Of a stretch of DNA of 64,000 bases, positions 51,601 through 52,908 are shown piece by piece. The position numbers were made by a program, and so were the translations under genes. Below the pieces are notes generated by a model that worked only from the letters and a program-made list of their open reading frames with translations, was not told where the DNA came from and searched no databases. The DNA comes from an uncultured Lachnospiraceae bacterium. GTDB lineage: Bacteria; Bacillota; Clostridia; Lachnospirales; Lachnospiraceae. Numbering within the stretch: position 1 is the stretch's first letter; each line of letters begins with the position of its first letter. The DNA lies in the NCBI GenBank assembly GCA_902789665.1, contig CADAOY010000004.1, positions 1 through 64,000 on the forward strand, given 5' to 3'.

Positions 51601-52132
51601 GCTATGCTATAATCCGGAAACTGAAGAAAAAGATATGCGTGTCACTACAATAATCGTAGACAATGCGCTTGTTTTTCTTGGAATTATAGCGACAGCTATC
51701 ATACAGACATCCATCGACATTATTCCGGGTATGCTCACCATTCTTCTTGTAATACTTGGAACGCTCTGGATATGGACTGAGGATGAAGATGAAGGATGGG
51801 TTGTTACATTGAGATACGGAGCGGTAGTGGAATACGTTTTCGTTCCATTCTTCTTATGCTACGCAATGTCAGCGCCTGTTTATATGTCGAGTATCGTTGG
51901 AATTATCCTTTCGGTCGGATGTATTGTGCTTGGATTTGTAACAAAGATGAAGGGCGTCAGAATCTACGGCCTCATCGTATCAATGATAATGGTATTTAAA
52001 CTTGCCCTTGTTGATTTCGAAAAATCATCGCTTCTGGCTTACGCATTAAGTTTCTTCGTGGCCGGCATAGCATGCCTTGTGATTAGTATGCTGTATTATT
52101 TTGTTAATGCGGCGGTGAAGAAAATGGAGTAG
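48644..52132 (+). CDS. Very large polytopic membrane protein (DUF2339-like) with coiled-coil and Pro/Gln/Ala linker
   Basis: An 1162-residue protein. Residues about 1-85 are charged and likely coiled-coil; about 100-185 form a Pro/Gln/Ala-rich linker with repeats of the APQxARPxQ kind; from about 205 to the end there are some 30 hydrophobic helices with short loops. This layout is that of DUF2339 proteins, which are of unknown function. No catalytic motif was found. GGGGAACG precedes the ATG. Its stop codon lies within the 15-base sequence (52131-52145) that recurs at 52830 and is complementary to the tRNA-Met 3' end. Confidence 0.8.
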   Translation: MDNSKLQIQEIERRIRAEREQLDKVIESLGSGDEIEKNKLEFLKSELDYINNQYKLVSEASEKKAKERMQAMSIANDKFATQKDKTVKAWSRAEEEGKEVQEAPQPVRSAQTVQPAPQMARPVQAPQQAPQVARPAQTVQAAPQAQRTVKSAPVRPVQGPQPAPQKVVQTTNQPKPLPEFTVEEPIEIKQIKTKDAGKKTSVENRIGLMVMPILAASLIFISLILFANALPEIIGDIIKQSTMVVAGFSFMGAGLWLSLKKKGGAFGQILTAIGAGELFITAVLMRFAFKSINDLVLFILLFIWSILIIPFKKYANVLVHTIGELGILFAVVFGTIYCIAQGNHSGIIVVFAFFFMSMLLYYLLFRIKGSVWNFAIFHSFNICKILVILFTVSFAFGNSMLTNSVLFVLCTLVGIGLYVDVLVSDKANVQKIFRGRDIFCAVVSGFYAVSAFFSSAMTVFDLQAFFICGGRIASADRLKEIASQIWDERWLMFSVASLIVLCMLLASEFVLKSTFAKFFSEGIVAVILLGGLLMSHDTFKFGYILVFLIFTALGYIRKNHLLKITALLSYVIYAFIFNENILAILVGVLGALITLLLLYAVRNQYFTSYKITVYFAIVTYIITRSYATYQPTWDWGAGFTASVVALSLLNVMVMFTPLSKDKEKKYDLIIIPEIMAVFTTVTAMWTAFGIKVAGGSTGYIALLTSFVLVLLTLFRGFTGRRIICKINPIIALSIGMITLIPFKYSALWFGAVIIIAALVLLYVKDEWYSSIYKILLYLLALGFTFVCTGYFFKTFVLENFLNPINVVAVLITVITAAFKFTELRIDRRDDMNDMRVPTLVINVMVAFIASLFMKGSENLGDYLLALCIIAIVAEWILSGFLSGFAAEITTAIVFMFFFVFRSATFGAAGYMIFAYAVSILILFMTYFKKDAYRLSTKACVYALMMVNAVVCPILYYSKSGGGDYDVYLIINFVLLCVFNALFRYSPLCYNPETEEKDMRVTTIIVDNALVFLGIIATAIIQTSIDIIPGMLTILLVILGTLWIWTEDEDEGWVVTLRYGAVVEYVFVPFFLCYAMSAPVYMSSIVGIILSVGCIVLGFVTKMKGVRIYGLIVSMIMVFKLALVDFEKSSLLAYALSFFVAGIACLVISMLYYFVNAAVKKME

Positions 52133-52156
52133 CGAGAGGGGGATTAAAACTTTCTA

Positions 52157-52210: not shown

Positions 52211-52283
52211 GGGATCTTAGCTCAGCTGGGAGAGCATCTGCCTTACAAGCAGGGGGTCACAGGTTCGAGCCCTGTAGGTCCCA
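52211..52283 (+). tRNA. tRNA-Val (anticodon UAC)
   Basis: A complete cloverleaf: acceptor GGGATCT/AGGTCCC (one G-U), D stem GCTC/GAGC, anticodon stem TCTGC/GCAGG around CTTACAA, and T arm ACAGG-TTCGAGC-CCTGT. The anticodon TAC reads valine codons. The discriminator is A. CCA is not encoded. Confidence 0.95.
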
Positions 52284-52308: not shown

Positions 52309-52382
52309 GGCGAGATAGCTCAGTTGGCTAGAGCACACGGTTCATACCCGTGGTGTCGAGGGTTCGAATCCCCCTCTCGCTA
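52309..52382 (+). tRNA. tRNA-Met, elongator (anticodon CAU)
   Basis: Acceptor GGCGAGA/TCTCGCT (first pair G-U), D stem GCTC/GAGC, anticodon stem CACGG/CCGTG around TTCATAC. The anticodon stem lacks the three G-C pairs of the initiator, so this is the elongator form; the loop TTCATAC argues against tRNA-Ile(CAU). The T stem is GAGGG/CCCCC, which leaves an A-C mismatch at the second pair. CCA is not encoded. It is 25 bases after tRNA-Val on the same transcript. Confidence 0.93.
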
Positions 52383-52423
52383 CGACAGAAAAAAGAATCC
52401 AGATGGATTCTTTTTTTTGTCGT
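52382..52423 (+). terminator. Intrinsic terminator after tRNA-Met
   Basis: A 19-bp near-perfect stem, 52382-52400 with 52405-52423, an AGAT loop and eight T inside the 3' arm. The 5' arm includes the tRNA discriminator base and the ACAG found at the base of the next two hairpins. Confidence 0.85.
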
Positions 52424-52452: not shown

Positions 52453-52561
52453 TAAGACACCACGGGTGTGGTGTCGAGGGGCGAGCACGCCCCAGTGGGG
52501 CGTTGTTTGCGAGTGGACCGAGTCGAAGACGAGACCGAATCCCCCTCTCGCATATAAACAG
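52453..52561 (+). repeat. tRNA-Met-related tandem module, copy 1
   Basis: A 109-base unit repeated at 52617 with two substitutions. It starts with a perfect 8-bp hairpin (GACACCAC/GTGGTGTC, GGGT loop, 52456-52475). It then has two mutually exclusive hairpins using CGCCCC at 52488-52493 with GGGGCG on either side. It ends in a segment closed by TGCGAG/CTCGCA (52508-52513, 52547-52552) that contains CGAATCCCCCTCTCGC, identical to the tRNA-Met T-loop to acceptor end. The GTGGTGTCGAGGG near the start also matches the tRNA. The inserted middle is not tRNA-like. A short structured RNA is a fair guess; function unknown. Confidence 0.75.
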
Positions 52562-52589
52562 AAGGTCCCATTTGGGACCTTTCTGTTTT
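52557..52589 (+). terminator. Terminator-like hairpin after module copy 1
   Basis: GGTCCCA (52564-52570) pairs with TGGGACC (52573-52579), extended outward through a one-base bulge to ACAG/CTGT and followed by four T. Its inner stem differs from that after copy 2 while the ACAG/CTGT base is shared. Confidence 0.75.
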
Positions 52590-52616
52590 ATCTTTTGTGA
52601 GAGTGTTCCTAAAGAA

Positions 52617-52725
52617 TAAGACACCACGGGTGTGGTGTCGAGGGGCGAGCACGCCCCAGTGGGGCGTTGTTTGCGAGTGGACCGAGTCGAAGACGAGACC
52701 GAATCCCTCTCTCGCATACAAACAG
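52617..52725 (+). repeat. tRNA-Met-related tandem module, copy 2
   Basis: 107 of 109 bases are the same as copy 1, 164 bases further on. The two differences are C to T in the acceptor-like end (52708) and T to C just after it. Sequence before and after the unit is not conserved between copies, so selection, gene conversion or recent duplication has kept just this block alike. Confidence 0.75.
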
Positions 52726-52756
52726 GGCGGCCCCCATTGGGGGGCTGTCCTGTTTT
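52722..52756 (+). terminator. Terminator-like hairpin after module copy 2
   Basis: A 14-bp stem (52722-52735 with 52740-52753, two G-U pairs), an ATTG loop and four T. It has the same place and ACAG base as the hairpin after copy 1 but a different, compensated stem. Confidence 0.78.
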
Positions 52757-52908
52757 ATCAGATGTGAGAGTCAACTTTATGAAAAATGAATCCATGGTGT
52801 TACGTCTTGTGGCCCTCACGCGGCGTAGCAGCGAGAGGGGGATTCCAATCTTTATTTACTACAATATAATAATTGGTTATAATGTAATTTATTGAGAAGG
52901 AAGTACTG
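52757..52908 (+). promoter_or_regulatory. Region before the DUF6020-like gene, with promoter and inverted tRNA-end fragment
   Basis: GCGAGAGGGGGATTC at 52831-52845 is the exact reverse complement of 52366-52380 in tRNA-Met. Downstream a likely promoter, TTTACT (52855-52860), 17 bases, TATAAT (52878-52883), serves the membrane protein gene at 52909. Confidence 0.6.

Follow-up and report, generated by a model that had tools for sequence, protein, structure and literature searches.

Two modules behind a tRNA-Met gene of an uncultured Lachnospiraceae bacterium are probably partial tRNA copies interrupted by a very small, gene-less mobile DNA element

What are the two near-identical modules that follow a tRNA-Met gene in the window, by which we mean the whole 64,000-nucleotide stretch of DNA that was analysed? 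The original prediction took them for a small structured RNA derived from the tRNA gene, perhaps a tRNA mimic or decoy. Our analysis leads to another answer. It is probable that the modules are partial copies of tRNA-Met interrupted by a gene-less mobile DNA element, roughly 52-55 nucleotides (nt) long. Judged from sequence comparison, the best reading of this element is non-autonomous mobile DNA resembling REPs or MITEs.

The repeat search in the window recovered the modules at 52453-52561 and 52617-52725. They are 109 nt each, 98% identical and have a spacing of 164, so that the predicted pair of near-identical 109-base copies was borne out. Each module runs from a tRNA-Met-derived hairpin through GAGGG and 55 other bases to a T-loop/acceptor half and a terminator-like hairpin (Table 1). 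It had also been proposed that the flanks derive from the adjacent tRNA, and this is the case: GTGGTGTCGAGGG occurs in tRNA-Met at 52350 and in the module copies at 52468 and 52632, and CGAATCCCCCTCTCGC occurs in tRNA-Met at 52365, in copy 1 at 52536 and, with one change, in copy 2 at 52700. A partial copy would thus consist of the variable region and the T-stem 5' strand, followed by the T-loop/acceptor 3' half with the terminator-like hairpin, and the element would interrupt it between T-stem and T-loop, insertion at the tRNA-linked copies being putative. The TGCGAG/CTCGCA pairing, thought to close the module like an acceptor stem, is present in the window but absent from three other loci (L009, L012 and L014), where GCGCC or GCGC is found. 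Of two GC hairpins described as competing inside the module, CGCCCC-AGT-GGGGCG alone matches a conserved covarying stem. Folding z-scores against shuffles were -3.0 to -6.4 for four stretches of the module region. No + strand promoter-like site between 52383 and 52453 was among those listed by the pattern scan. No Rfam family matched the modules at gathering score, and sub-threshold matches were weak.

Table 1. Features of the tRNA-Met locus and its two modules in the window.
Feature	Position	Strand	Basis
tRNA-Val(TAC)	52211..52283	+	ARAGORN; Rfam
tRNA-Met(CAT), intact, source of the flanking fragments	52309..52383	+	ARAGORN; Rfam; repeat search
Inverted repeat with A/T runs 3' of tRNA-Met; terminator-like by eye, absent from the pattern-scan list	52382..52423		Repeat search
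Copy 1: 8-bp hairpin GACACCAC-GGGT-GTGGTGTC, a tRNA-Met segment and its own reverse complement	52456..52475	+	Repeats; folding
Copy 1: GAGGG, T-stem 5' strand of the partial tRNA-Met copy	52476..52480	+	Repeats
Copy 1: twin-hairpin mobile element (putative insert), GCGAGC...GACGAGAC, 55 nt; T-loop TT missing	52481..52535	+	Sequence comparison
Copy 1: tRNA-Met T-loop/T-stem/acceptor 3' half (CGAATCCCCCTCTCGC)	52536..52551	+	Repeats
Copy 1: terminator-like hairpin	52556..52588	+	Folding; pattern scan
Copy 2: tRNA-derived hairpin	52620..52639	+	Repeats; folding
Copy 2: twin-hairpin mobile element (putative insert), 55 nt	52645..52699	+	Sequence comparison
Copy 2: tRNA-Met 3' half, one change	52700..52715	+	Repeats
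Copy 2: terminator-like hairpin; absent from the pattern-scan list	52720..52755	+	Folding
Inverted tRNA-Met 3'-end copy at the stop codon of the upstream ORF	52129..52150	-	Repeats
Inverted tRNA-Met 3'-end copy 3' of the modules	52825..52848	-	Repeats

On each side of the tRNA and module region lies one of the two inverted tRNA-Met 3'-end copies. In another genome (G003, locus L009, from about 1590 on), the sequence 3' of the module looks, by eye, like the terminal part of the window's upstream ORF in reverse complement. Thus, the region appears inverted between the tRNA-Met 3'-end copies.

The 55 bases in the middle of each module had been described as unrelated. They are indeed unlike tRNA, but they belong to a dispersed element, carried by at least 169 of the 397 genomes that were sampled from this large gut family. 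Searching the bacterium's own genome at the DNA level revealed two further related stretches at E<1e-5, one of them 3' of tRNA-Leu(CAG). In the genus, more related stretches lie 3' of tRNA-Met, tRNA-Gly and tRNA-Leu, and similar modules adjoin tRNA genes in other genomes, as had been anticipated. Between isotypes only the middle part is common, and it lies on the opposite strand behind Leu and Gly. The family count comes from model R1, built from ten element middles, eight of them near tRNAs, at E<=1e-3. By this model several genomes hold at least 13 copies each, and the complete genome G220 holds at least 13, of which 11 have an identical score. Model R2, built from 103 matches, found the element in 23 of 291 sampled class genomes, 16 of them outside the family (three of those with E above 1e-4), and, at E<=1e-4, in 7 of 299 sampled phylum genomes. 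Three of these seven lie outside the class, and two of the three have E-values near 1e-5. In named genomes, the exact pattern gave 46 matches in 45 stretches, and the carriers were Lachnospiraceae bacteria, Butyrivibrio, Roseburia porci, Herbinix, Candidatus Merdinaster equi and uncultured Clostridia. Among the Butyrivibrio carriers are sp. AC2005, WCD3002 and LC3010. A distant-mode search of phages and plasmids gave no element match at E<=1e-5. We compared loci after leaving out the five weakest of the 103 matches and dropping one element without a readable end. The 143 element ends comprised 126 distinct ones, of which five lacked the CCnnnGG anchor; the other 121 gave 112 distinct elements. 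In the literature within our reach, to which most subscription journals did not belong, and in the accessible part of PMC3733652, no description of the element was found.

Other features were seen near some copies. A larger repeat of about 200-250 nt carries the element, by eye, in G220 (L050-L062) and G348 (L048 and L067), and its copies are cut at varied points and have internal deletions in palindromes. The elements at L068 and L128 adjoin, also by eye, plasmid-mobilisation-like (MobA/MobC-like) genes. Two IMG/VR viral contigs (L285 and L286) hold a shorter exact right-end pattern of the element.

The element has a definite right end. When 93 distinct matches were aligned on the model end, A, G and A were found in 92, 93 and 93 of them, followed by C in 68; beyond this end the information falls to 0.22 bit and then stays at 0.05-0.30 bit. 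Comparison of filled and empty sites revealed that the left junction is purine-GG and that 2-3 target bases are replaced. In repeats of G695, the filled sites read AAAGGG-element-GGGGACC and the empty ones AAAGGG-AG-GGGGACC (nine empty and four filled loci printed), and in G476 a filled and an empty repeat copy with identical flanks lie 159 bp apart. Protein genes show the same arrangement. A YaiI/YqxD gene is broken by the element in G423 (AAAAGG-element-ATATGCG), and its homologue in G710 reads AAAAGG-TGC-ATATACC. In G222 the element lies in frame in an anti-sigma-like ORF, for which G715 has AAAGG-ATA-TCAGAATG. Pfam named the YaiI/YqxD gene and not the anti-sigma-like ORF. Because these homologues share only 67-74% identity, the replaced bases can be told with less certainty here than in G695 and G476. 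By comparison with G715, the element is in frame in L117; the frame is broken in L033. Since empty homologues exist, the filled sites would represent gains rather than losses of the element.

Structured RNA genes and other repeats also hold the element. Two yjdF (azaaromatic) riboswitches (L109 and L028) carry it in a loop, where an insert of 55-56 nt stands in place of 4 nt in the family model, and they still score above the gathering threshold; the gene behind the L109 riboswitch copy is DUF2992. In four copies of Clostridiales-1 RNA (RF01699; L063, L064, L065 and L111, three of them from one genome) the element sits in the last hairpin. This RNA family was not among the Rfam matches of the window modules. 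One element is nested in the apical loop of another in G009 (L141, by eye). Not every site lost bases: a tRNA-Met copy in G011 (L147) reads GAGAGGG-element-TTCGAATCC with nothing lost, and the window copy lost TT. We also observed an abundant palindromic repeat of another Clostridia family (f21), CTCCCTTGTGTAAAGGGAG...GAGGGATTG (L257, L260, L262, L263 and L266-L270 in G695; L220/L240 in G476; L222-L225 in G442), which hosts some of the insertions. At another locus (L187, 5386) the element overlaps a tRNA-Arg(GCG) called by ARAGORN, apparently at the variable-loop position.

The element consists of a 6-bp stem, an 8-bp stem that closes a 3-nt loop, a bulge of 4 nt at the 3' side, a mini-hairpin that has a GNA or GNNA loop with G.A oppositions beside it, and the end ...AGAC. 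Compensatory changes in hairpins had been expected, and the stems do covary among distinct elements. Across 112 distinct elements, with the two anchored pairs excluded, 648 of the 672 cells in the 8-bp stem are Watson-Crick, and the pairs alternate between GC, CG, TA and AT, with all four types at several positions. The 6-bp stem is 82% Watson-Crick when the bulge is 4, against 6-42% at nine other offsets. When ten sequences, two of them identical, were analysed by RNAalifold, five pairs showed double changes. A GNA/GNNA loop closed by two or more pairs is possible in the tail of 108 of the 110 elements, and the second pair of this mini-hairpin is GC in 83, AT in 12, CG in 9 and TA in 4. In DNA, loops of the GNA and GNNA type are very stable when a C-G pair closes them. 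An alternative CCG-nnn-CGG pairing is possible in 71 of the 110 elements; the energy model preferred it for the element of L050, and for that of L024 it returned neither this pairing nor the proposed mini-hairpin. One element variant holds CCGAGCCGG, which we take to resemble the 8-17 DNAzyme core.

Is this fold kept as DNA or as RNA? Folded as DNA, both strands of three elements were similar in energy. We anchored the elements on CCnnnGG, took as in register the 96 of 112 in which four or more of the 6 outer pairs form, and counted 13 G.T and 6 A.C in 1152 stem cells (1.1% and 0.5%). Acceptor stems of tRNAs from the fetched loci, for which the trim with the most Watson-Crick pairs was chosen and 2 of 110 tRNAs were dropped, had 51 G.T and 0 A.C in 756 cells (6.7% and 0). 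The two differ by Fisher tests at 2e-4 for the G.T:A.C ratio and 4e-11 for the G.T share, against a control that favours G.T because ARAGORN tolerates it. Taken alone, 13 G.T and 6 A.C are compatible with 1:1 (p=0.17) as well as with a mild preference for G.T. The count over unregistered stems was 21 G.T and 27 A.C in 1568 cells, with 872 of 896 cells Watson-Crick when anchor-fixed pairs are included. We take the rarity of G.T pairs as moderate evidence, by comparison of sequences, that the fold may be kept as DNA rather than RNA.

The linkage to tRNA genes is partial and isotype-specific. Of the distinct elements, 50 out of 112 have a tRNA within 400 nt (46 lie downstream of it, 4 upstream), a fraction that is biased because eight of the ten elements behind R1 were near tRNAs and the loci are mostly best R1 matches; for the other 62, the fetched locus either has no tRNA or has it at a distance beyond 400 nt. 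In named genomes, 19 of the 46 pattern matches are within 400 nt of a tRNA on either side. In the window, the 400 nt downstream of tRNAs make up 2% of the bases. The downstream elements follow Gly (25), Leu (9), Met (8), Pro (3) and Gln (1), on the strand opposite to the tRNA for Gly, Leu and the one Gln case and on the same strand for Met and Pro. The element interrupts partial copies of the very tRNA that it follows, and the called tRNA remains intact. For the 46 downstream elements (the four upstream of a tRNA were left out), the acceptor-side 10-mer flank matched the own tRNA at 9/10 or better in 38; with other isotypes, 2.7% of the 1214 comparisons reached this level. The 5'-side flank was less telling, at 8/10 or better in 36 of 46 and, for other isotypes, in 24%. 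Tandem units are present in the window and at L025, L029, L037, L103, L110, L127 and L131, and the terminator-like hairpin is also duplicated at L029, L103, L127, L143 and L147. In the genus, 23 tRNA-Met genes were readable, and a unit follows 8 of them.

Two further observations concern these units. Beside a module in G016 (L015, about 1640-1680) lies a lone tRNA-Met 3' end with no called tRNA, which resembles an attachment-site scar. In tRNA-Gly(GCC) units (L034, L038, L103, L122 and L131), a 5' hairpin is common across genera, and its stem shows paired changes, GAGTCC/GGACTC and GAGCCC/GGGCTC, around a similar loop.

Which enzyme might move such an element? The IS200-type Y1 transposase is the natural candidate because it acts on single-stranded hairpins. 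In the 397 genomes, both Y1 (PF01797) and the element occur in 92, the element only in 77, Y1 only in 127 and neither in 101 (p=0.84). None of the 30 fetched Y1 loci has the element within 1.5 kb, and the right-end motif is also absent there. A RAYT/IS200 helper is therefore unsupported. When 654 neighbouring ORFs were clustered, no protein cluster was common to more than 6 of 81 element loci, and the largest one (6 loci) looks by eye like an ABC-type ATP-binding protein.

We propose that the element moves as folded single-stranded DNA. A protein supplied in trans would cut and join it, reading both hairpins, by analogy with what has been proposed for REP/IS200-type transposition. Simple IS200-type insertion does not predict the replacement of 2-3 bases. 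Copies behind tRNA genes would persist because the tRNA itself stays intact. The tRNA half-copies would come from duplication of a unit made up of the element, the tRNA 3' half and the terminator, possibly by the same enzyme acting at two GGG sites, and such duplication may also have produced the tandem copies. Several points count against the proposal. Neither the Y1 comparison nor the ORF clustering at 81 loci yielded a transposase linked to the element, the tRNA-Met copy in G011 lost nothing, and the proposal does not account for the tRNA-derived 5' hairpin. Furthermore, behind none of these 23 tRNA-Met genes is there a partial tRNA copy with an intact T-arm and no element, which leaves insertion at the tRNA-linked copies putative.

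The module might instead be a small structured RNA that arose from a tRNA gene, a mimic, decoy or attenuator, with the element as a conserved domain of it. Strong folding, the compensatory changes and the terminator-like hairpins behind each copy would fit this, as would the facts that modules follow the isotype of their own tRNA and that more than one isotype has a tRNA-like 5' hairpin, several in all. However, the middle is antisense behind Gly and Leu tRNAs and sense behind Met and Pro, and the same element is dispersed in protein genes, riboswitches, Clostridiales-1 RNA and other repeats. Its stems have few G.T pairs, empty-site counterparts exist, and neither the promoter scan nor Rfam at gathering score offered support in the window. 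Orientation, dispersal, empty sites and the scarcity of G.T pairs led us to discard a tRNA-mimic RNA as the main reading, and we consider it unlikely that the module is a structured RNA. Spread of the element through an RNA intermediate, a reverse-transcribed hairpin RNA, is a slightly different idea, which the available text of PMC4478555 discusses for a 42-nt mobile palindrome, one of the mitochondrial GC clusters. Insertion into hairpins of RNA genes is in keeping with it, but G.T pairs are few and nothing that we saw requires RNA, which makes this route quite improbable.

The mobile DNA reading includes, as a special case, a REP-type repeat moved by an IS200-like RAYT/TnpA-REP transposase. 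Small multicopy palindromes with an unpaired end tag that can fold as single strands are comparable to the REPs in the accessible parts of PMC3733652 and PMC8266576. The element, however, lacks a GTAG or CGTC end tag, shows no association with Y1 and replaces 2-3 target bases, so this special case is doubtful. Finally, the copies could be passengers of tRNA-targeting integrative elements, that is, attachment-site scars. The duplicated tRNA 3' halves and the lone 3' end in G016 recall such scars. Against this, most distinct elements (62 of 112) are distant from a tRNA or have none in the locus, and insertions at purine-GG occur in unrelated genes and repeats; for the element itself, the empty sites in non-tRNA contexts largely refute this explanation, which we regard as very improbable.

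How does the element compare with known systems? E. coli rtT repeats are tandem, lie behind tyrT and carry the 3' end of that tRNA. In the modules, unlike in rtT, the interior of the repeat is a dispersed element and several isotypes are involved, and Rfam gave no rtT match. REPs are palindromes tagged by GTAG or CGTC and include Rickettsia palindromic elements, and the CGTC class has no known transposase, according to the available part of PMC3733652. With these the element shares short dispersed palindromes, one unpaired end tag, intergenic as well as intragenic positions and species-specific stems, as far as the same partial text describes them. It differs from them in its two unequal hairpins, AGAC end, size of 52-55 nt, replacement of 2-3 target bases and linkage to tRNA 3' halves (PMC3733652, available text). 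In that text Clostrid- or Firmicutes does not occur. As in RAYT-mobilised REPs, the repeat is multicopy and palindromic with a covarying stem; its end is AGA followed by C in place of GTAG or CGTC, and Y1 genes are not associated with it. Like Rickettsia palindromic elements, it can lie in frame within protein genes, and the CGTC tag of RPE-4 and RPE-6, which are named in the accessible part of PMC3733652, is absent from it.

Prokaryotic MITEs, as the available part of PMC10969869 presents them, are likewise non-autonomous, multicopy and able to insert in frame in ORFs. Unlike MITEs in that text, the element has no terminal inverted repeats, since its purine-GG plus stem and its AGAC end are not inverted copies of each other, and no target-site duplication, since filled and empty pairs show 2-3 bases replaced. 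Because the REP tests for tag and transposase and the MITE tests for inverted repeats and target duplication fail, we class the element as gene-less palindromic mobile DNA that belongs to neither group. Yeast mitochondrial GC clusters, in the accessible text of PMC4478555, are gene-less, GC-rich mobile palindromes of about 40 nt with unit mergers and an unsettled mechanism, all of which is similar. Unlike these clusters and double-hairpin elements, our element is bacterial, has no AG or ACT end direct repeats, has covarying stems with a fixed bulge and forms tRNA-linked units.

Lacking an Rfam match at gathering score in the window, the element will be mistaken for new RNAs, gene parts or riboswitch variants. 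With its defined ends and clean empty sites, it allows a direct test of how gene-less palindromes, such as transposase-less REPs and mitochondrial GC clusters, spread. We tentatively raise the possibility that it represents a class of very small (52-55 nt) bacterial mobile DNA with two unequal hairpins, the second being the mini-hairpin, which would move single-stranded by an unrecognised enzyme, insert after purine-GG with exchange of 2-3 bases and colonise structured RNA genes. Behind tRNA genes it would travel together with a replacement 3' half and terminator of the same isotype, and could in this way enter T-arms without destroying the tRNA gene. In summary, as far as the available texts of the cited sources go, the nearest bacterial kin in kind are REPs and Rickettsia palindromic elements, and the nearest in style are the GC clusters of yeast mitochondria.
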